Below, one piece after another: positions 14,527-23,385 of a stretch of DNA of 32,190 nt. Made by a program: the position numbers and the translations under genes. A model generated the notes under the pieces. That model was given only the letters and a program-made list of their open reading frames with translations, made no database searches and was not told the origin of the DNA. Position 1 is the stretch's first letter. Every line of letters begins with the position of its first letter. The stretch is from Chloroflexota bacterium (GTDB lineage Bacteria > Chloroflexota > Dormibacteria > CF-121): NCBI GenBank assembly GCA_005889225.1, contig VBEW01000041.1, positions 1 through 32,190 of the forward strand, in the 5' to 3' direction.

Positions 14527-15762
14527 TCACGCCTTCTCCTGGAAGCGAGCCAGGATCACGCTGGCGTTGTGCCCGCCGAGCCCGAAGGAGTTGGAAAGGA
14601 CGACGCCGACGTCGGCATGACGGGCCTCACCTGGAACGTAATCCAGATCGCACTCAGGATCCGGGGTCTGCAGGTTGATCGTTGGCGCGATCACCTGGTC
14701 GCGAATCGTCAGCGCGCACACCACGGCCTCAACCGCGCCCGACGCCCCCATCATGTGGCCCGTCATCGACTTGGTGCTGCTCACGGCCAGCTTTTCGGCG
14801 TGCTTGCCGAATACGCGGTGAATCGCGTCGGTCTCGAATTTGTCGTTCAGCGGGGTGCCCGTGCCGTGCGCGTTGATGTAGTCGACCCGCTCCGGCTCGA
14901 TCACGGCTTTGCGTAGCGCCCGTCGCATGGTCAGAACCGCCCCCTCGCCCTCGGCCGGCGCCGCCATGTCGAAGGCGTCGTTACTCGACCCATAGCCGAT
15001 CACTTCGGCGTAGATGTGGGCCTGGCGGCGGCGGGCGTGCTCGAGCTCTTCCAGCAGCAGGGCGCCCGCCCCCTCGGAGATCACAAAGCCATTGCGATCT
15101 CGATCGAAAGGCCGCGACGCCTGCGCCGGATCCTCGTGCTGCGCGAGTGCCCGCATGGCACAGAACCCGGCGTAGACGACCGGGATCAGGCAAGCCTCCG
15201 CGCCGCCGGTCACGACAGCATCGGCATCCCCCCGGCGGATGGTCTCGAAGGCTTCGCCGACCGCTCCACTTCCGGTGGCGCAGGCGGACACCACCGCCAT
15301 ATTTGGCCCGCGCAGGCCGAGGGCGATCGCGATGTGCCCTGAGGCAGTATCCGTGAGCATGTTCTGGATAAACGTGGGGCTGACTCGCTTAAGGCCGCGC
15401 TCCTGAAGGATTCGTTGCTGCTCCAGCAGGACGCTGAGTCCGCCGGCCGCGCTGCCGAACACGACGCCGATCTCGTCCAAGAGGCCATTCCTGACGAGCC
15501 CGGCATCCATGAATGCCTCCTGGGCCGCCGCCACACCAAGTTGCGCATAGCGGTCCATCCGGCGAAGCTCCTTGGGTTCAATCCGGCCGGTGGCGTCGAA
15601 TCCCTTGACCTCGCCGGCGATCTGAACCGGATACTCGCTGGCGTCGAACACGGTGACCCGTCCGACCCCTGACTGACCTTCCAGCATGGCTGCCCAGGTA
15701 CTGGGCGCATCGAGACCGACGGGGGTCACAGCCCCAACCCCGGTCACAACGACGCGCTTCAT
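14527..15762 (-). CDS. fabF: 3-oxoacyl-ACP synthase II (FabF), copy 2, in the acpP-fabD-fabF operon
   Basis: A 411-residue KAS II with complete active site: Cys161 in VSACATGSG, His299 in NAHGTGTP, Lys331 in SSTKSM and His336 in TGHMMGASG. It elongates acyl-ACP in type II fatty-acid synthesis. Its ATG overlaps the fabD stop (ATGA), and acpP precedes fabD, so this is the copy with standard housekeeping neighbours. The C-terminal gate loop reads SNSFGLGG rather than SNSFGFGG, replacing the usual gating phenylalanine with leucine, which could change chain-length preference (inference). The ATG start puts VVVTGVG at residues 4-10, as usual. Confidence 0.96.
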   Translation of the reverse strand: MKRVVVTGVGAVTPVGLDAPSTWAAMLEGQSGVGRVTVFDASEYPVQIAGEVKGFDATGRIEPKELRRMDRYAQLGVAAAQEAFMDAGLVRNGLLDEIGVVFGSAAGGLSVLLEQQRILQERGLKRVSPTFIQNMLTDTASGHIAIALGLRGPNMAVVSACATGSGAVGEAFETIRRGDADAVVTGGAEACLIPVVYAGFCAMRALAQHEDPAQASRPFDRDRNGFVISEGAGALLLEELEHARRRQAHIYAEVIGYGSSNDAFDMAAPAEGEGAVLTMRRALRKAVIEPERVDYINAHGTGTPLNDKFETDAIHRVFGKHAEKLAVSSTKSMTGHMMGASGAVEAVVCALTIRDQVIAPTINLQTPDPECDLDYVPGEARHADVGVVLSNSFGLGGHNASVILARFQEKA

Positions 15763-16730
15763 GCCTGCGGGAACGGGCTGAGAGCGCGCGCGACTTCGCG
15801 GTCGTTCAGGGTCACGACGTGCGCCTCCCGGCTGGTTCGCCGGATCAGGCCGGACAGCACCTGTCCAGGGCCGATTTCAAGGAACTCGGCGCTGCCCCGA
15901 GTGATCATCTCGAGGACCGATGCCGTCCATTGAACTGGCTTGAGAATGTGATCGGCCAGCTCCTTGCGGATGTCGTCGGCGCTGGTCAAGATCTGGCCGG
16001 TGATGTTCGCCACCACCGGGACGCGCGGCTGGCGCAGCGGCAGGCGGGCCACGATCTCAGCGAACTGGGCGGCGGCCCGTGCCATTAACGGCGAGTGCGA
16101 GGCGATGCTGATCGGCAGCCGGACGACGCGAGCGGCGCCCCGGGCGCGAGCGAGCTCAGCCGCGCGATCCAGCGCCGCAGCCTCGCCCGAGAGCACGATT
16201 TGCCCGGGCGAGTTGGCATTCGCCACGGTTATGACGCCGCTGGCGGCGGCCTCAGCGACCACGGCCTCGACGGCCTCCCGCTCCAGGCCCAGTACGGCGA
16301 GCATTCCACCGGGGCGCTCATTCCCGTTCTCTTTCATCAAGCGGCCGCGCTCGCGGACCAGCACAAGCGCGCTGTCGAAGTCCATGACATCCGCGGCGAC
16401 CAGGGCGGTGAACTCGCCGAGGCTGTGCCCGGCGACGTAGCGGGGGGCGATCACCTGGCCCATCGCCTGCCAGCGTTCGCGCATCGCGTTCAGGCAGGCG
16501 ATGCTCACGGTCAGGATCGCGGGCTGGGCGTTGATGGTGTCGTTCAGCTCCTGCTCGGGGCCCTCGAAGCAGAGCCGGCTCAGCCCGAAGCCGAGGATGT
16601 CGTCGGCCCCCTTGAAGACCCGGCGGGCAGTCTCGGACACCTCGTACAAGGCCTTGCCCATGCCGACGTATTGCGACCCCTGGCCGGGGAAGACAAAGGC
16701 CATGGGCCGGGCACCGTATGGCGCGATCAT
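15759..16730 (-). CDS. fabD: Malonyl-CoA:ACP transacylase
   Basis: A 323-residue enzyme that loads malonate from CoA onto ACP for fatty-acid elongation. It has the N-terminal GQGSQ loop (residues 16-20), nucleophile Ser103 in GHSLGE, the substrate arginine in RERGRLM, and catalytic His212 in ASHSPLM. The frame is open to 16817, but that extension would run through the acpP stop region. The ATG at 16730 lies 13 bases after the acpP stop and gives the usual length, so it is preferred; a second ATG is at 16703. The operon order acpP-fabD-fabF is compact, with a four-base overlap with fabF. Ribosome-binding signal before the ATG is weak, suggesting dependence on upstream translation. Confidence 0.95.
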   Translation of the reverse strand: MIAPYGARPMAFVFPGQGSQYVGMGKALYEVSETARRVFKGADDILGFGLSRLCFEGPEQELNDTINAQPAILTVSIACLNAMRERWQAMGQVIAPRYVAGHSLGEFTALVAADVMDFDSALVLVRERGRLMKENGNERPGGMLAVLGLEREAVEAVVAEAAASGVITVANANSPGQIVLSGEAAALDRAAELARARGAARVVRLPISIASHSPLMARAAAQFAEIVARLPLRQPRVPVVANITGQILTSADDIRKELADHILKPVQWTASVLEMITRGSAEFLEIGPGQVLSGLIRRTSREAHVVTLNDREVARALSPFPQA

Positions 16731-16743
16731 TCCGGCTTGGGGA

Positions 16744-16989
16744 TCAGGCGACGGATACCTTCCCCTTGACGTAATTCCAGGCCTCGCCGACGGTGCGAAG
16801 CTTCTGGGCGTCTTCATCCGAGATCTCCATCCCGTATTCCTCCTCGAAGGCCATGATCAGCTCGACGAGGTCGAGGGAATCGGCCTGTAGGTCCTCGGTA
16901 AAAGAGGCTTCCGGGGTTACCTTCTCGACATCGACGCCAAGTTGCTCCGCGATGATGCTCCGGAACTTGTCGAAATTCGCTTCGGCCAT
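16744..16989 (-). CDS. acpP: Acyl carrier protein
   Basis: An 81-residue acidic helical carrier. The 4'-phosphopantetheine attachment site is Ser38 in the motif [18 protein letters not shown], which is diagnostic. It carries growing acyl chains between FabD, the FabF enzymes and the rest of the fatty-acid synthase. The ATG at 16989 is preferred over the longer open frame because it has a very strong ribosome-binding site (AGGAGGAGGG) and matches the family length of about 80. It is the first gene of the acpP-fabD-fabF operon. The 203 bases upstream separate it from the divergent FabH-like gene and should hold promoters for both. The minus strand has a palindromic TGTATACA near 17040-17047 that could be part of a -10 or an operator. 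Confidence 0.97.
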
Positions 16990-17181
16990 CCTACCCTCCT
17001 CCTGGTTGGAGTCCGGGCGCGGGGTCGCGCCCAAATTTGGTGTATACAATAGCGAACTGCAGCGTGCCGCAGCGAATACCGGGGCGAGCTCGTAAAGATC
17101 TATCCCAATTGGCCGCTATTGGTTACGGCCGGATTTGCTGACCTTAACCAACTTTGCGTAACCGCGCCGAATACCTCGACT

Positions 17182-17187
17182 TAGAAT
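17182..17187 (+). promoter_or_regulatory. -10 element (TAGAAT) of a probable leaderless FabH-like operon transcript
   Basis: TAGAAT ends five bases before the GTG at 17193, so the transcript should begin at the start codon itself. No ribosome-binding site is present. No clear -35 is found at 16-18 bases. Confidence 0.5.
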
Positions 17188-17192
17188 GAGGC

Positions 17193-18131
17193 GTGACTTC
17201 TGTCCCTATGCCGTCTGTCGTTCAAGCGCGCCGCGCCTTAGCCCTCAGCGCCATCGCCGGATTGGGCGTCAACCGCCCCCCCGCCAGCGCCCCATCGGCC
17301 AAACGGCTGACCGGCCCCGACATCACCGGGGTCTCGTATCGTGTACGGGCTGAGAACGGGCTGACGACGCCCTCGCTGGCCGCAGGCGCGGCTCGTGCGG
17401 CGCTTCGGGCGGCGGGGATCGACGCTTCGGATCTCGAGATGGTCATCGTCGGAACCACGACCCCGGATGTGCTGTGGCCCACGACCGCCTGCCTTGTTCA
17501 GACTGACCTGCAGCTGCCGATGGTTGCCAGCTTCGATCTCTATGCCGCGGAGACCAGCCTGCTCGCCGCGCTCGACGTGGCGACCCGCTACGTGGCGGCC
17601 GGCGCAGCGGCCGTCTTATTGATCGGCGCGGAGTCCGACAACCAGCTGGTGGACCTGCCCGGGCAGGGCAGCGCGATGCGTGGCCGCGCCGCGTCCGCCG
17701 CGGTGTTGACGCAGGCGGGCGGGGAAGGCGGCGTGCTCGCCACCATGACCGGGGGCTCGGCCCGATCAGACGCCAACGGTGACCTGGCGGACCGGACTTT
17801 GCTCCGGGGACTGACGGACGGTGTCGGCGAATGCTTGGGGAAAGCGAACCTGACGCTGCCCGACATCGACCTCGTGATCGCCGAGCAATCGGCACCCGAG
17901 ATCATGCAGGCCTGGTGCAAGACCAGTGGCGTCTCCTCCAGCCGGCTTGTCCTCAACCCTGCTCGCTACGGGTCGCTGCTTGCGGCGGCCCCGCTGATGG
18001 CCTTGCACGATACGGTCGTGGAGGGCCGGCTGCATAACGGGATGACTGCGCTGCTCCTCGGTTGTGGCAGCGGGCCGTCCTGGGCCGTCACCTGTGTCCG
18101 CTGGGGCGGTGGGGGGATTGCCGAATGGTGA
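17193..18131 (+). CDS. FabH-like (KAS III fold) protein lacking the catalytic triad
   Basis: A 312-residue thiolase-fold protein whose layout follows 3-oxoacyl-ACP synthase III: MVIVGTTTPDVLWPTTA, then the nucleophile region, then LNPARYGSLLAAAPLMAL and a C-terminal LLLGCGSGPSWA. The three FabH catalytic residues all appear changed. The Cys position in FDLYAAETSLL is Glu120, the His position in the HQAN-equivalent AEQSA is Glu231, and the Asn position in RYGS is Ser261. The FGDGAGA loop is replaced by MRGRAASA. Condensing activity is therefore unlikely; a structural, decarboxylating or regulatory role is possible. The GTG start has a -10 box five bases upstream, and the stop overlaps the next FabF gene by seven bases (ATGGTGA), implying coupled expression and perhaps a heteromeric complex. 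Confidence 0.8.
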   Translation: MTSVPMPSVVQARRALALSAIAGLGVNRPPASAPSAKRLTGPDITGVSYRVRAENGLTTPSLAAGAARAALRAAGIDASDLEMVIVGTTTPDVLWPTTACLVQTDLQLPMVASFDLYAAETSLLAALDVATRYVAAGAAAVLLIGAESDNQLVDLPGQGSAMRGRAASAAVLTQAGGEGGVLATMTGGSARSDANGDLADRTLLRGLTDGVGECLGKANLTLPDIDLVIAEQSAPEIMQAWCKTSGVSSSRLVLNPARYGSLLAAAPLMALHDTVVEGRLHNGMTALLLGCGSGPSWAVTCVRWGGGGIAEW

Positions 18132-19372
18132 ATGGTACCCGGGTGGTCGTCACTGGTACCGGCGCCATCACCTCGCTCGGACACACCACGCGTGAGACCT
18201 GGGAATCCGTGAAGGCTGGCCGGTCGGGGATTCGCCGGGTGCAGGCTTTCGATCCATCCGCGACGCCCAGCCAGGTGGCCAGCGAAGTGGTTGACTTCAA
18301 GCCCGAGACGCGTCTCGATCGCAAGGAAGCGCGCCGCATGTCGCGGTTCGTGCAATTCGCGATGGTGGCCACCAAGGAGGCGCTCCAGGAGTCCGGGCTT
18401 CACATCACAGAGGCGAATCGCGACCAGGTGGGGGTGCTGGTGGGCAGTGCGATCGGAGGCTTGGAGCAGATCGAGGAGGCGCACACCATCCTCAAAGAGC
18501 GAGGCCCATCCCGGGTGAGCCCGTTTACCGTGCCGATGATGATCGCCGACATGGGCGCCGGCCAGATCTCGATCTCGCTCGGGGCGCGTGGACCGAATTA
18601 CTGCACCGTATCTGCATGCGCGTCGGGCGCGCACGCGATCGGCGAGGCTTTCGAGATCATCCGGCGTGGTGACGCGACGGCGATGATCGCCGGCGGCAGT
18701 GAAGCCTGCGTCACGCCGCTCGCGCTGGCGGCGTTTTGTGCGGTCCGGGCGGTCTCGACCCGCGACATCGAGCCGAGCCGCGCCAGCCGCCCGTTCGACC
18801 TGGAACGCGACGGCTTCGTGATGGGGGAGGGCGCCGGCATCCTGGTGCTCGAAGAGCTGGAATCGGCGGTCAAGCGCGGAGCGCCAATTCTCGCCGAAGT
18901 GGTGGGCTACGCCGCGACCGCCGACGCCAGCCATATCACGGCGCCAGACCCGGTGGGTGCCGGTGCCGCCCAGGCCATGAAGCGGACCCTGGAAAAAGCG
19001 CGGGTCGCGCCGGCGGAGGTCAGCTACATCAACGCTCACGGCACCGCGACCCAGCTGGGCGACGTGGCCGAGACGCTCGCCGTCAAAGATATCTTCGGGG
19101 AGGCCGCCTACCGGATCCCGATCAGCTCGACGAAGTCGATGCTCGGCCATTTGCTCGGGGCAGCGGGCTCGGTGGAGGCCGTGATCTCGGTCAAGGCGGT
19201 CGAGGAAGGGGTGGCGCCGCCCACCATCAACCTGGAGCACCCGGACCCGCAATGCGACCTCGACTACGTGCCGGAAGGTGCCCGCGAGCTTGACATCAGA
19301 TTGGCGCTGTCCAACTCGTTCGGCTTCGGCGGCCATAACGCCTCGTTGCTGTTCAAGCAATTTCGAGGCTAA
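18125..19372 (+). CDS. fabF: 3-oxoacyl-ACP synthase II (FabF), copy 3, coupled to the FabH-like gene
   Basis: A 415-residue KAS II with all catalytic residues: Cys165 in VSACASGAH, His305 in NAHGTATQ, Lys337 in SSTKSM and His342 in LGHLLGAAG, and the gate loop SNSFGFGG. The open frame extends upstream to 18062, but the ATG at 18125 (or GTG 18128, giving a four-base overlap) puts VVVTGTGAI in the usual position and overlaps the stop of the FabH-like gene. The C-terminal stretch TINLEHPDP.CDLDYVP is almost the same as in copy 1, so these two seem closer to each other than to copy 2 (by eye). A TTG-starting Mg2+-sensor gene follows after three bases. Confidence 0.95.
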   Translation: MVNGTRVVVTGTGAITSLGHTTRETWESVKAGRSGIRRVQAFDPSATPSQVASEVVDFKPETRLDRKEARRMSRFVQFAMVATKEALQESGLHITEANRDQVGVLVGSAIGGLEQIEEAHTILKERGPSRVSPFTVPMMIADMGAGQISISLGARGPNYCTVSACASGAHAIGEAFEIIRRGDATAMIAGGSEACVTPLALAAFCAVRAVSTRDIEPSRASRPFDLERDGFVMGEGAGILVLEELESAVKRGAPILAEVVGYAATADASHITAPDPVGAGAAQAMKRTLEKARVAPAEVSYINAHGTATQLGDVAETLAVKDIFGEAAYRIPISSTKSMLGHLLGAAGSVEAVISVKAVEEGVAPPTINLEHPDPQCDLDYVPEGARELDIRLALSNSFGFGGHNASLLFKQFRG

Positions 19373-19375
19373 CGT

Positions 19376-20629
19376 TTGATCTTTCTCAGCGACTTCCTCA
19401 ACGCTGAGGTGGTCGACGTTCGGCAGCATCGGGTTGGCCGGGTTCGAGACTTGGTGGTCGTGATGACCGAGCCCTTCCCTCGCGTCACCGGGGTCATCCT
19501 GAAGAACAACCGAAAGGTGCGGTCGCTCGATTGGTCGGTGGTCAGAAGCTGGGATAACAAGGAGCTCAGCCTGAAAGTCGATGAATCGAGCGTCCAGTCG
19601 CACGCACGGGCCGACAGCGAGCTCTGGCTATCCCGGCAAATCCTGGACAAGCAGATCGTTGATATGGACGGCCGGCGGGTGGTGCGCGTTAACGACCTGC
19701 AACTCTCGCAGGTCGATGGGTCGATGCTGCTGGTTGGCGTGGACATTGGCGGGCGCGGTCTGGCCCGCCGCATCGGGCTCGAGGGGATCGGGCGGCGGCT
19801 GGCGTCGATGATTGGCATCGACTGGCCGCAAAAGCTCATCTCCTGGGAGGCGGTCGACCCGGTCAAGAGCGACGTGAGCTCGGTCAAGCTGCGGATCGCG
19901 CATACCAAGCTCGCGAAGTTGCATCCGGCGGACATCGCGGATATCGTCAACGAGCTGAGCCCGGAGGACCGGAATGCGGTGTTCGCGGCCCTGGACGACG
20001 AGAAGGCCGCCGATACGCTGGAAGAGATCGATGAACCGCAGACGCAGGCCTCAATCCTCGAGCGGCTCGACGTCGAGCGCGCATCGGACATCCTGGAAGC
20101 GATGGCGCCCGATGAAGTTGCCGACCTGCTGGCGGACATGCCGCGCGAGCGGGCCCAGCTCTTGCTGCAGAAGATGGAAGAAGACGAGGCGGAGGATGTC
20201 GAGGAACTGCTCGCCTATCGCGAGGACACCGCCGGTGGCCTGATGACGACCGAATACGTCGCCGTGCTGCACACGCTGATGGCCGCCCAGGCGATCGATC
20301 GTTTGCGTCAGCTGGAACCGAATGCGGAGTCGGTCTATTACGTCTACGTCGTGGACGAAGAAGAGCACCTGCTTGGCGTGCTCTCCCTGCGCGATCTGAT
20401 CGTGGCGAAGCCGGATACGAAGATCCGCGACTTCATGATCAAGAACGTCATCTCAGTCGGCGTCGATGCCGGTCCACGCGAGGTGGCCGAGGTGACCTCC
20501 AAGTACAACCTCCTGGCGGTGCCGGTGGTGGATCAGCACAACCGGATCCAGGGGATTGTCACGGTCGATGACGTGATGGAGCGGGTGATGCCGGGACGGG
20601 CGGGCGGTCGCCGCCGCCGGATCTTCTAA
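19376..20629 (+). CDS. Soluble MgtE-type protein: PRC-barrel-like, MgtE_N and CBS domains
   Basis: A 417-residue cytosolic protein without membrane helices. Residues 1-160 look like PRC-barrel-type repeats (DVRQHRVGRVRDLVVV and DMDGRRVVRVNDLQL). Residues about 175-280 are an MgtE_N superhelix (LAKLHPADIADIVNELSPED and the signature AGGLMTTEYVAV). Residues 285-405 form a CBS pair (GVLSLRDLIV and GIVTVDDVMERV). In the MgtE channel these cytosolic parts sense Mg2+ and gate the pore; here the pore is absent. The TTG start is supported by GAGGCT seven bases upstream; it lies three bases after the FabF stop. A variant NRAMP permease begins seven bases downstream, the obvious partner. Function as a regulatory subunit is inferred. 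Confidence 0.88.
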   Translation: MIFLSDFLNAEVVDVRQHRVGRVRDLVVVMTEPFPRVTGVILKNNRKVRSLDWSVVRSWDNKELSLKVDESSVQSHARADSELWLSRQILDKQIVDMDGRRVVRVNDLQLSQVDGSMLLVGVDIGGRGLARRIGLEGIGRRLASMIGIDWPQKLISWEAVDPVKSDVSSVKLRIAHTKLAKLHPADIADIVNELSPEDRNAVFAALDDEKAADTLEEIDEPQTQASILERLDVERASDILEAMAPDEVADLLADMPRERAQLLLQKMEEDEAEDVEELLAYREDTAGGLMTTEYVAVLHTLMAAQAIDRLRQLEPNAESVYYVYVVDEEEHLLGVLSLRDLIVAKPDTKIRDFMIKNVISVGVDAGPREVAEVTSKYNLLAVPVVDQHNRIQGIVTVDDVMERVMPGRAGGRRRRIF

Positions 20630-20635
20630 GGGGCG

Positions 20636-21940
20636 GTGGTGCGGCCGAAGGCCCTGGATCGGCCGCTCGGCCTGCTGCGAAGCCGGCGGGCCCGGTTATT
20701 CGTATTGCTCTCGGTGGTCGGCCCCGGGATCATCACCGGCACCGTCGACAATGACGCCACCGGCATCACCGGCTACGCGCTGGCCGGTTCGCAGTTTGGC
20801 TACGACCTTCTCTGGCTGCTGATTGTGACGGCGATCTGCCTTGCCGTGATCCAGGAGATGGTCGCGCGCATGGGGACGATCACCGGCAAGGGGCTGTCCG
20901 ACTTGATCCGTGAACGCTTCGGCGTGGCGCCGACGGTGTGGGTGATGATCCTGCTCTTCATCGCGAACGCCGCGACCACCGTGGCAGAGTTCGCAGGCAT
21001 CGCCGGAGCGTCACAGCTCCTATTCGGTGAGTTCGCTCGCTACATCGCCATTCCGATCTCCGCGTTCTTCGTCTGGTTTCTGGTCCTGCGCGGCTCCTTT
21101 CGCGTCGTCGAACGGATCCTCCTCACGCTCGCCCTTGTCTTCATCAGCTACATCGTGTCGGCATTCCTGGCTCATCCGAAGTGGGGTGACGTGATTCATC
21201 ACGCGGTCGTCCCGACGTTTCACGCCACCGCGCCGTTCCTGCTGATCTTCATCACCATCATCGGCACCACGATCACCCCCTGGATGGCGTTCTTCCAGCA
21301 GTCGAACGTGGCCGATAAGGGCTTGAATCCGAAGGATCTGTGGTTCGAGCGCATCGATACCTACACGGGGATTCTCGCGCTGAACGTGATCGCCTTCTTC
21401 ATCATCGTTGCGACCGGCGCGACCATCTTCGTGCACCATATCCAGGTCGACCCTTCGGACCCGTCGGCTTTCGCCAAAATCGCCCTGGGTCTCAGGCCGC
21501 TCGCCGGGCAGTTCGCTGAGCAACTGTTCGCCATCGGGCTTCTCACCGCTTCCCTGATGGGGGCATCCGTGCTTCCGCTGTCAACGACATACGCGATTAC
21601 CGAGGCATTCGGATTCGAGCGTGGGATCGACAAATCGTTCGGGGAAGCGCCGGCTTTTCTGACGATCTATACGACGATGATCGTGCTCGGCGCCGGCATC
21701 GCCTTGTTCCCCGATGCCCCGCTTGCCCTGATCACCAACCTTCCCAACATCGTCAACGGGATGCTGCTGCCGCTCCTCTTGCCGATCCTGGTCGTGCTGG
21801 CCAGTGATAAACGGATCATGGGTCGCTACGCCAACACTCGGCTGTTCAACGTCGCCAGCGGGGCGGTCTTTACCTTCCTGACCCTGGTGACGCTCGCCTT
21901 CCTGGCCTCGGTTTTCTTCCCCGGCCTATTTCGCGGTTAG
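20636..21940 (+). CDS. NRAMP-family transporter with non-canonical metal site (possible Mg2+ transporter)
   Basis: A 434-residue protein with about eleven membrane helices of the SLC11/NRAMP fold, recognised by GPGIITGTVDNDATGI in helix 1, IQEMVARMG in helix 2, and SVLPLSTTYAITEAFG in the helix 8 region. The canonical metal-binding motifs differ: helix 1 has DNDA (38-41) instead of DPGN, and helix 6 reads ITPW (Thr214-Pro-Trp) where Mn/Fe transporters have MPH. Loss of that methionine is a feature of NRAMP-related magnesium transporters. With an MgtE-type sensor gene directly upstream, Mg2+ is a reasonable substrate guess (inference). The start is one of two adjacent GTG codons; the second (20639) has better spacing from AAGGGG. 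The 3' end overlaps the macrodomain gene tail to tail by 15 bases. Confidence 0.88.
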   Translation: MVRPKALDRPLGLLRSRRARLFVLLSVVGPGIITGTVDNDATGITGYALAGSQFGYDLLWLLIVTAICLAVIQEMVARMGTITGKGLSDLIRERFGVAPTVWVMILLFIANAATTVAEFAGIAGASQLLFGEFARYIAIPISAFFVWFLVLRGSFRVVERILLTLALVFISYIVSAFLAHPKWGDVIHHAVVPTFHATAPFLLIFITIIGTTITPWMAFFQQSNVADKGLNPKDLWFERIDTYTGILALNVIAFFIIVATGATIFVHHIQVDPSDPSAFAKIALGLRPLAGQFAEQLFAIGLLTASLMGASVLPLSTTYAITEAFGFERGIDKSFGEAPAFLTIYTTMIVLGAGIALFPDAPLALITNLPNIVNGMLLPLLLPILVVLASDKRIMGRYANTRLFNVASGAVFTFLTLVTLAFLASVFFPGLFRG

Positions 21941-22459
21941 CTGGCGCTCAGCCTCCGCCCGAAACGCCGACACGGCATCGTCCCCGAAGAGAATGAATCG
22001 CACGTCGCGCATCGACCTGGCGGTTGGTGCCAGCGCGACGACCTCCTCCAGCATGATCCGGGCGCAGTCTTCCATGGGGAAACGCGCAATGCCGGTGCCG
22101 ATTGCCGGAAAGGCGATGGAGCGGAGGCCGCGCTCCTCCGCGATGGCGAGGCTTCGGCGGGTCGACCGGCGCAGGCTCTCGGCAGTGGTGCGGCCGCCCA
22201 GCCTCATGCTGGCCGCGTGGATCACGTGACGGGCTTTGAGCCTGCCGCCGCCCGTGATCGCCGCGTCACCGACCTCGATCGGGCCGATGGTCCGGCACTC
22301 GGCCTGGATCGCCGGGCCGCCCGCCCGGGCGATGGCGCCGGCCACTCCACCTCCCAGCTCGAGGTCGTTGTTCGCGGCGTTGACGATGGCATCGACATCC
22401 TGGATGGTGAGATCGCCCTGCTGGACCTCAACGGTCAGGCCGTCGACGCGCCAGCTCAT
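21926..22459 (-). CDS. Macrodomain protein (ADP-ribose binding/hydrolysis)
   Basis: A 177-residue single macrodomain. It has the ADP-ribose pocket IVNAANND (Asn27-Asn30), the glycine loop ELGGGVAGAIARAGG, the motif ARHVIHAAS and the diphosphate-binding GTGIARFP. Members remove ADP-ribose from proteins or nucleic acids, deacetylate O-acetyl-ADP-ribose, or only bind. The GGGV(A/D)xAI loop places it near the Af1521/MacroD side, but the exact activity is open. Its ATG overlaps the stop of the PfkB kinase gene (ATGA), and its 3' end overlaps the NRAMP gene on the other strand. A divergent NUDIX hydrolase of the ADP-ribose pyrophosphatase type lies 2 kb away, making ADP-ribose turnover a plausible shared theme. 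Confidence 0.93.
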   Translation of the reverse strand: MSWRVDGLTVEVQQGDLTIQDVDAIVNAANNDLELGGGVAGAIARAGGPAIQAECRTIGPIEVGDAAITGGGRLKARHVIHAASMRLGGRTTAESLRRSTRRSLAIAEERGLRSIAFPAIGTGIARFPMEDCARIMLEEVVALAPTARSMRDVRFILFGDDAVSAFRAEAERQLTAK

Positions 22460-23385
22460 GCGGTCGGCTGGACCTGCCAGGCCATCGCCGCCATTCGCGC
22501 CTCGACATCGGCCCGAGTAATGGGCAGCAAACCATGGACGCTGAAATGCTGGATGGTGAATGAGGCCATCACCATGGCGTAGCCAAGCGCCAAACGCACG
22601 GTCTCCTCGTTTTCCACCTGCTGCTCCGCGAGGCAGCCCAGGAAGCCGGCGGCCACTGCGTCGCCCGCCCCGGTGGGATCGGTCGGCGGATCCACCGGTA
22701 ACGCCGGCAGATGGATGTCCTCGCCGTGGCGATAGAGCGTGGCGCCCTTCGGCCCCTCCTTGATGACGAGGCCCCGCAGGCGGAAACGGTGTCGCAACTG
22801 CACCGACGCCGCCTCGATGCTGTCGACCTTCGCGAGGGCCATCGCCTCGGACGCGTTCAGGAAGAGGTAATCGAGGCGCTGCAGGACGGGCTCGAGGGCC
22901 TCCGGTTGCTCCCGAATATAGAGCTTCATCGTGTCGCCGGCGACCAGCCAGGGATGCTCCAGTTGCTCGAGGACGCGCAGCTGGTGACGCGGTTCCATGC
23001 TTCCCAGGAACACGATCGGAATCCGGCGCTGGTCGGGGGTCAGGGTTGGCGTGAATCCCCGATAGGCCCCCTGGTCGGATCGCTCGTTCCGCGTGGTCCC
23101 GGTCTCGTAGTCGTGTTCGGCAAACCAGCGATAGGTGGGTAAATCCGACGCGACCACGCTGCGGAGATCGGTTCGTGTGCCACGCTGGGCTTCCTGGAAC
23201 GCGGGCATGAAGTCGGGGCCGGCTGTGGCGACGATAGAGACCGGGGCAAACAGGCGAGCCGCCAGGCTGAAGTAGGTTGCTGATCCGCCAAGGCCGTCGG
23301 TGTTGACGCCCATCGGCGTGCGGACATCGTCACGGGTGATGGTGCCGGCGACGAGCAGGCGCCACGGCTGCTGGGATGGCGTCAC
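22456..23385 (-). CDS. PfkB-family carbohydrate/nucleoside kinase
   Basis: A 309-residue ribokinase-like kinase transferring phosphate from ATP to a sugar or nucleoside. It shows the N-terminal substrate loop GLGGSATYFSLAARLF, the oxyanion/catalytic motif DPTGAGDAVAAGFLG near residues 238-252 with the conserved catalytic Asp, and FLNASEAMAL before it. The substrate cannot be read from sequence. The neighbouring macrodomain and NUDIX genes hint at ribose or adenosine salvage, but this is inference. The start is a GTG (23385) with weak ribosome-binding signal. The stop overlaps the macrodomain start by four bases. Confidence 0.93.
   Translation of the reverse strand: MTPSQQPWRLLVAGTITRDDVRTPMGVNTDGLGGSATYFSLAARLFAPVSIVATAGPDFMPAFQEAQRGTRTDLRSVVASDLPTYRWFAEHDYETGTTRNERSDQGAYRGFTPTLTPDQRRIPIVFLGSMEPRHQLRVLEQLEHPWLVAGDTMKLYIREQPEALEPVLQRLDYLFLNASEAMALAKVDSIEAASVQLRHRFRLRGLVIKEGPKGATLYRHGEDIHLPALPVDPPTDPTGAGDAVAAGFLGCLAEQQVENEETVRLALGYAMVMASFTIQHFSVHGLLPITRADVEARMAAMAWQVQPTA

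Follow-up and report, generated by a model that had tools for sequence, protein, structure and literature searches.

Most loci of the NRAMP-related Mg2+ transporters of bacteria (NrmT, also NRMT) carry a gene that is homologous to the cytoplasmic domain of the Mg2+ channel MgtE, and for this MgtE-like fragment a role in feedback regulation or as a chaperone has been proposed by Shin et al. 2014 (PMC4072509). In Clostridium acetobutylicum, the Mg2+ permeases CA_C0685 and CA_C3329 are of this type, and the operon neighbour of CA_C0685 is a homologue of the N-terminal cytoplasmic part of MgtE. In Acidobacterium capsulatum, the fragment is encoded directly upstream of the NrmT gene (ACP2976-ACP2977), without an M-box magnesium riboswitch (PMC4072509). 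A pair of the same kind is present in a 32,190-nucleotide stretch of a Chloroflexota genome (assembly GCA_005889225.1, contig VBEW01000041.1), which as a whole is called the window below. Here, a putative sensor stands alone, is a homologue of the MgtE cytoplasmic domain and adjoins an NrmT gene, the arrangement being that of A. capsulatum, whereas the fragment of C. acetobutylicum is split into two genes in an operon with a magnesium riboswitch, and the window has a single sensor gene and no M-box that could be found. The preliminary description of this DNA had suggested that the pair may be a Mg2+ transporter with a gate borrowed from an unrelated channel family; this is not a new idea, as the pairing and the feedback hypothesis were already in print (PMC4072509). 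What the MgtE-like fragment does next to NrmT was left open in 2014, and no later answer has been found, with most subscription journals lying outside the searched set.

Permease and metal site

The second gene of the pair encodes an NRAMP-fold permease, as had been recognized from the sequence, with a Pfam Nramp match over nearly the full length (295 bits, E 7.5e-88). Its nearest solved relative is EleNRMT of Eggerthella lenta (PDB 7qia; E 2.2e-99, 336 bits, about 42-43% identity, Foldseek template modelling score 0.91), and the best canonical NRAMP, that of Bacteroides fragilis, reaches 72 bits. Like EleNRMT (PMC8806188), the permease combines the fold with the D/G/T residues of the metal site and with a tryptophan in place of the histidine. 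The canonical motifs DPGN and MPH are replaced by DATG and TPW, with Met changed to Thr at position 214 and His to Trp at position 216 of helix 6. The preliminary description had read helix 6 correctly as TPW without the methionine, but its DNDA in helix 1 was two residues out of register, the metal-binding aspartate being the second of the two, D40, and the motif DATG. With DATG and TTIT (DxxG-TxxT), the site conforms to the signature DxxG-TxxA/T that Ramanadane et al. 2022 (PMC8806188) described in NRMTs. In a rapid tree with 63 permeases (one method, a short search and two canonical rows only), the window permease is split from BfraNramp and DraNramp with a support of 100 in the Shimodaira-Hasegawa-like approximate likelihood ratio test (SH-aLRT), and a set of 53 rows contains both the window permease and EleNRMT (SH-aLRT 88); L163, which is marked as sensor-less in this tree, sits near the end of its contig. 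An identity as canonical Mn/Fe NRAMP has thus been ruled out by score, metal site and tree, and the permease, to judge by its sequence, is almost certainly an NRMT, in agreement with the grouping suggested from the sequence alone.

Mg2+ is probably its main cargo. The T224A exchange in EleNRMT abolishes detectable Mg2+ transport and leaves Mn2+ transport in place (PMC8806188), and for this reason no other sequence feature speaks as well for Mg2+ as the conservation of the corresponding T211. Unlike EleNRMT, the window permease has T214 at the position of A227 and N371 at that of Q379. As mutation of Q379 strongly compromises EleNRMT (PMC8806188), the asparagine calls for caution, but Asn, Ser and Tyr are also found at this position elsewhere among the 63 rows, and it has therefore been treated as variable and not as defining.

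A second NRAMP-fold gene is found in the same genome (L002, G000:C201:8460-9716, minus strand), with 30% identity to the window permease, the motifs DDDPSG in helix 1 and TTISPY in helix 6, EleNRMT as best solved relative (166 bits) and no sensor nearby. A canonical NRAMP was not found in the source genome, as both NRAMP-fold genes are without DPGN and MPH.

Sensor protein and MgtE family

The sensor is a soluble protein in which tandem PRC barrels are followed by MgtE_N, two CBS domains and a basic tail, and both Pfam and a model of the N-terminus bear out the original reading of the first gene as MgtE_N and CBS domains with PRC-like repeats and without a pore. With MgtE of Thermus thermophilus (TtMgtE, PDB 2zy9) it shares the MgtE_N domain, the CBS pair and the acidic residues of the Mg4, Mg6 and Mg7 sites, and it differs in having a tandem PRC barrel in front, asparagine at the position of D226, and neither plug helix nor pore. 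The pore domain PF01769 is absent from the protein in Pfam, and instead of the plug helix the basic tail, which extends 11 residues beyond the MgtE_N-CBS core, follows the CBS pair.

Of the PRC repeats, the first is recognized by Pfam (PF05239, residues 2-49, 23.0 bits at a cut-off of 21.2) and the second stays under the cut-off. The predicted model of residues 1-175 (predicted local distance difference test score, pLDDT, 86.0; predicted template modelling score, pTM, 0.82) can be superimposed on CdpB (8qzo) over 133 residues that span both repeats (Z 13.8, root-mean-square deviation 2.6); further structural matches are PRC and RimM folds with Z up to 9.3 and reaction-centre H subunits with Z up to 8.0, the latter not being pressed here. 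The N-terminal model thus resembles the tandem PRC fold of CdpB1/CdpB2 from Archaeoglobus fulgidus. In contrast to the sensor, the CdpB chain has 150-170 residues and thus no MgtE_N and CBS domains, and the fold alone shows no common function. Eleven residues of the PRC region are invariant across a 37-row alignment (G21, D25, D91, Q93, D96, R104, N106, D107, R131, R132 and W157).

In MgtE, Mg2+ is bound by D91/D247 (Mg4), D226/D250 (Mg5), D95 (Mg6) and E59 (Mg7), whereas E258 (Mg2) and D259 (Mg3) lie past the CBS pair at the plug helix; Mg4 and Mg6 are required for closure, and the D226N/D250A exchange prevents it (Maruyama et al. 2018, PMC5882242). When the sensor is mapped onto TtMgtE, D246 corresponds to D91, D399 to D247, D250 to D95, D213 to E59, N378 to D226 and E402 to D250. 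The residues of Mg4, Mg6 and Mg7 between MgtE_N and the CBS pair are thus retained, Mg7 as aspartate, the residues of Mg5 are not matched, and E258 and D259 are missing along with the plug helix. The same holds widely, as D247 is Asp in 108 of 109 stand-alone sensors, D95 in 106, D91 in 104, and E59 is Glu or Asp in 106. These counts were made after duplicates and 13 repeat loci had been dropped, and earlier residue counts had covered 69 of 78 sensor rows (>380 residues). Positions 214 and 216, which bind Mg2+ near the plug helix, are Asp in 18/19 and Glu in 19/19 pore-bearing rows (7 PRC fusions and 12 ordinary MgtE), and Asp in 47/109 and Glu in 28/109 stand-alone sensors; L137 was grouped with the pore-bearing rows by its length, although a simple rule saw two helices only. 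Such a pattern would be expected if the switch between MgtE_N and CBS was kept and the plug-helix part released.

Lost ATP regulation was also considered as a hallmark of the detached sensor, because F227 of TtMgtE stacks on ATP (PMC5529423), and was rejected, as the residue is Leu in 103/109 stand-alone sensors but also in 18/19 pore-bearing rows.

In relatives, the PRC-MgtE_N-CBS module is fused to a true MgtE pore, and the sensor module derives from the MgtE family, as had been proposed at the outset. Seven loci encode such fusions, and the pore was confirmed by Pfam in all four that were scanned. L119, L120 and L121, from genomes of family f19, have PRC, MgtE_N, CBS and MgtE over cut-off, L149 and L150 from the same family were called fusions by length and hydrophobicity, and L135 comes from the Ktedonobacterales genome that also holds locus L017. 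The seventh, L106 (G015:C307), is a 623-residue PRC-MgtE_N-CBS-MgtE channel whose gene is immediately followed by an NRMT gene and overlaps the open frame of the latter, and it is possible that it represents an intermediate between channel and detached sensor. In a tree of the core, from which most of loci L020-L082 had been thinned out, the PRC-MgtE fusions group together in a single clade (100/98) that is distinct from ordinary MgtE. As forcing all pore-bearing rows together costs 0.81 log units (p 0.47 in the approximately unbiased test), this tree would fit either direction of cassette evolution. No paper that joins MgtE with a PRC barrel was found in the searched set, and PRC is not mentioned in the text of Shin et al. 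2014 (PMC4072509), which is why three features may be unreported, namely the tandem of PRC barrels, the fusion of PRC to MgtE and the division of the Mg2+ sites into conserved and relaxed ones.

Linkage, riboswitches and genomic context

A survey of gene neighbourhoods, which the preliminary description had suggested as a check, shows a conserved linkage. Among the named-genome loci, which are the best 80 of 166 relatives and hence biased to close kin, the sensor adjoins the permease in 77, in 72 of them upstream on the same strand and in 5 downstream on the opposite strand; of the 3 loci without a sensor nearby, one is cut at a contig end and two are from Ktedonobacterales. In 42 of the 72 loci, the matched stretch of the permease starts within the sensor frame or at the sensor stop, the gap lengths running to the start of the matched stretch and not to a proven start codon. 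Given the E values of the two domain assignments (7.5e-88 for Nramp, 8.5e-27 for MgtE_N) and the adjacency in 77/80 loci, a chance pairing can be excluded. In 151 genomes of the phylum, a sensor lies within 3 kb of 37/60 permease relatives with at least 270 bits, of 15/28 with 200-270 bits, and of 1/28 with 150-200 bits, this single case standing in tandem with a strong relative. This count rests on 116 permease rows (>=157 bits) and 89 sensor rows, one of which (G015) is the full PRC-MgtE channel; sensor rows below about 124 bits, second gene pieces and most rows with only the MgtE_N-CBS half, which are ordinary channels, were left out, and by eye no omitted whole-gene sensor row lies within 3 kb of a counted permease. 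The linkage, which recurs in several phyla, is thus a trait of the NRMTs within the family rather than of NRAMP-fold genes at large, and it is not universal. Of the two outcomes that the preliminary description had named as refuting its reading, neither was observed, as the permease does not fall among the Mn/Fe transporters and the linkage of the two genes is conserved.

Some related operons are preceded by an M-box (RF00380). In the Ktedonobacterales loci L017 (132 bits) and L018 (134 bits) it lies directly upstream of the permease, in the Acidobacteriota loci L069 (60 bits) and L077 (124 bits) upstream of sensor and permease, and in G092 (L125, C1:1002000-1006500, with L117) an M-box of 131 bits is followed by two tandem NRMT permeases and then the sensor. 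Altogether, M-boxes were found in 4 of the 74 named-genome loci that were scanned (L004, L006, L009, L010, L011 and L016 being left out of the 80) and in 1 of 13 further loci. The permeases of L017 and L018 are those nearest to the window's own group in the 63-permease tree, and as these are the M-box-controlled ones, Mg2+ is the better guess also for the window permease. Riboswitch control of the window pair itself was considered and rejected, as tRNA is the sole Rfam family over threshold in the window and the genome has no M-box.

The source genome is a 2.9 Mb draft (90.6% complete) of a soil bacterium; among named genomes, Chloroflexi metagenome bins come closest to it. Its other Mg2+ uptake candidates amount to one CorA and the second NRAMP-fold gene; neither an MgtE pore (PF01769) nor an MgtA-type ATPase over cut-off was found in it, and these absences are provisional because the genome is incomplete. 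The features of the pair are listed in the table. Sensor and permease gene are separated by a spacer of six bases (20630-20635) and share one frame, and the stop codon of fabF at 19372 precedes the sensor start by three bases. Same-strand fabF is present in 13 of the 14 close relatives L003-L016, the exception being L011, in which the contig begins within the sensor, and also in G017 and G103.

Features of the sensor-permease pair (positions in the window)
Feature	Position	Strand	Basis and remarks
Sensor gene, 417 aa, TTG start	19376..20629	+	open reading frame list and Pfam
Tandem PRC-barrel region, about residues 1-165	19376..19870	+	Pfam (repeat 1), model, alignment
MgtE_N, residues 182-284	19919..20227	+	Pfam, 94 bits, E 8.5e-27; holds D213, D246, D250
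CBS pair, about residues 300-404	20273..20587	+	Pfam, 63 bits, two stretches; holds D399, E402, N378
Basic C-terminal tail MPGRAGGRRRRIF at the place of MgtE plug helix and pore	20588..20626	+	sequence
NRMT-type NRAMP-fold permease gene, 434 aa, GTG start	20636..21940	+	open reading frame list and Pfam
Helix-1 metal motif D40-A-T-G43 (EleNRMT D55, G58)	20753..20764	+	alignment
E118 (EleNRMT E133), helix 3	20987..20989	+	alignment
Helix-6 metal motif T211-T-I-T214-P-W216 (EleNRMT T224, A227; canonical A-x-x-M-P-H)	21266..21283	+	alignment
N371 at the position of EleNRMT Q379, helix 10	21746..21748	+	alignment

Upstream of the sensor, a FabH-like gene and the fabF gene occupy the plus strand (17193-19372), and the minus strand (14527-17049) has an ACP-like and an acyltransferase-like open reading frame, both named by eye, and a second FabF-like gene. 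Downstream, a Macro-domain gene on the minus strand (21926-22459) overlaps the final 15 bases of the permease gene and also a PfkB-family gene (22456-23385). No promoter-like site was found in 16800-22500 and no repeats of note in 19200-22000.

Putative feedback subunit and rival explanations

Taken together, the locus can be read, with slightly better than even confidence, as a uniporter for Mg2+ to which a detachable subunit adds Mg2+ feedback. The permease would be a LeuT-fold uniporter that admits partly hydrated Mg2+, and also Mn2+, without a proton, and the sensor would correspond to the half of an MgtE channel that senses Mg2+ in the cytosol, freed from its pore and with a tandem PRC barrel at the N-terminus. 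Upon a rise in cytosolic Mg2+, the ion would bridge MgtE_N to the CBS pair, and the sensor, in this compact form and docked to the permease from the cytosolic side, would bring the latter into a non-transporting state, which would result in feedback inhibition. A feedback regulation of the permease by the sensor is somewhat favoured, whereas a docking by the PRC barrels is the weakest step and can only tentatively be suggested.

Several observations weigh against this reading. The plug helix with Mg2 and Mg3, which is the route of pore closure in MgtE, is absent from the sensor, and the coupling of sensor and permease must therefore differ from that in MgtE. Mg5 is impaired, as D226 is replaced by N378 in the window and by Asn in 90/109 stand-alone sensors, and in the permease N371 replaces Q379, a departure common to the window's close relatives. 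A one-chain model of both proteins (pLDDT 86.2, pTM 0.69, linker 408-435 below 50) comes without an interface score and speaks neither for nor against docking, and neither the window nor the source genome has an M-box. The NrmT of C. acetobutylicum functions without its partner (PMC4072509). In the sole published co-expression test, the MgtE-like partner of A. capsulatum brought no better Mg2+ rescue, and in a Mg2+-transport mutant the permease of that organism gave rescue only at low millimolar Mg2+, while a Mn2+ mutant was rescued fully (PMC4072509). That test looked for an improvement, and an inhibitor would not reveal itself by rescue at low Mg2+.

The full Mn2+ rescue by the A. capsulatum permease favours the alternative that the pair is mainly a Mn2+ importer, or a mixed Mn2+/Mg2+ importer, with a sensor that reads Mn2+ via the same carboxylates. 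In the experiments on the A. capsulatum pair, it was mainly Mn2+ uptake that was rescued (PMC4072509). The acidobacterial L069 and L077 have DxxG-TxxA like EleNRMT, so that this signature may not guarantee a high-affinity Mg2+ uptake; EleNRMT itself carries Mn2+ too (PMC8806188), and the window's genome has no canonical NRAMP that could be found. This alternative is nevertheless unlikely, as L017 and L018, whose permeases come closest to those of the window's group, have upstream M-boxes, as do L069, L077 and L117, and as the selectivity methionine is missing, so that such a Mn2+ importer would be without the residue that counter-selects Ca2+ (PMC8806188).

Also the incomplete linkage weighs against a sensor that is dedicated to its neighbour. 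Among the strong permease relatives, 23/60 have no sensor within 3 kb, and G103, a genome of the same family (L087/L124, G103:C204), keeps an 86% identical sensor behind fabF but lacks the permease next to it; its best NRMT relative, with 42% identity, is encoded on a different contig. The genes after this sensor were named by eye as a MarR/GbsR-like regulator and a small membrane protein. Therefore, a sensor can persist after the loss of its neighbour, or have a different NRMT as its target. The two Ktedonobacterales genomes with a lone NRMT (L017, L018) encode a stand-alone sensor at another place, and also a protein of fusion length. It could be that the sensor is free and acts on a non-neighbour, such as CorA, a further NRMT or a process of the membrane, and that its position reflects operon history, in line with the unrelated genes next to it in G103, the start of the window pair three bases after fabF, and the occurrence of PRC barrels in many unrelated proteins. 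Such a free sensor is quite unlikely, since the linkage to the permease recurs across several phyla, whereas the fabF neighbour was detected solely in the window's close relatives, and since a sensor need not be linked to an NRMT in the genome to act on it in trans.

The missing plug helix would also be compatible with a sensor that is not a gate but serves the permease as an assembly factor, or as a chaperone or buffer for Mg2+; Shin et al. (PMC4072509) name a chaperone as the alternative. It is very unlikely that this is its role, as the residues that bridge MgtE_N to CBS and that are tied to the shape change of MgtE upon Mg2+ binding are kept, as would be expected of a switch more than of a buffer.

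For the feedback subunit, a wider scheme may be considered, although it is rather doubtful: PRC-PRC-MgtE_N-CBS could be an exchangeable Mg2+-gating cassette for two unrelated transporters, gating the MgtE channel in cis via the plug helix and the LeuT-fold NRMT in trans via the PRC barrels, with L106 as the intermediate and the window sensor as the detachable feedback subunit. Should the permease indeed be gated by the sensor, the same feedback domain would serve both a carrier and a channel, whose folds are unrelated. The fusions of PRC to MgtE and the divided conservation of the Mg2+ sites make the question that was left open in 2014 testable, with the channel fusion as a natural positive control for the module, and with the kept and lost residues pointing to informative mutations.

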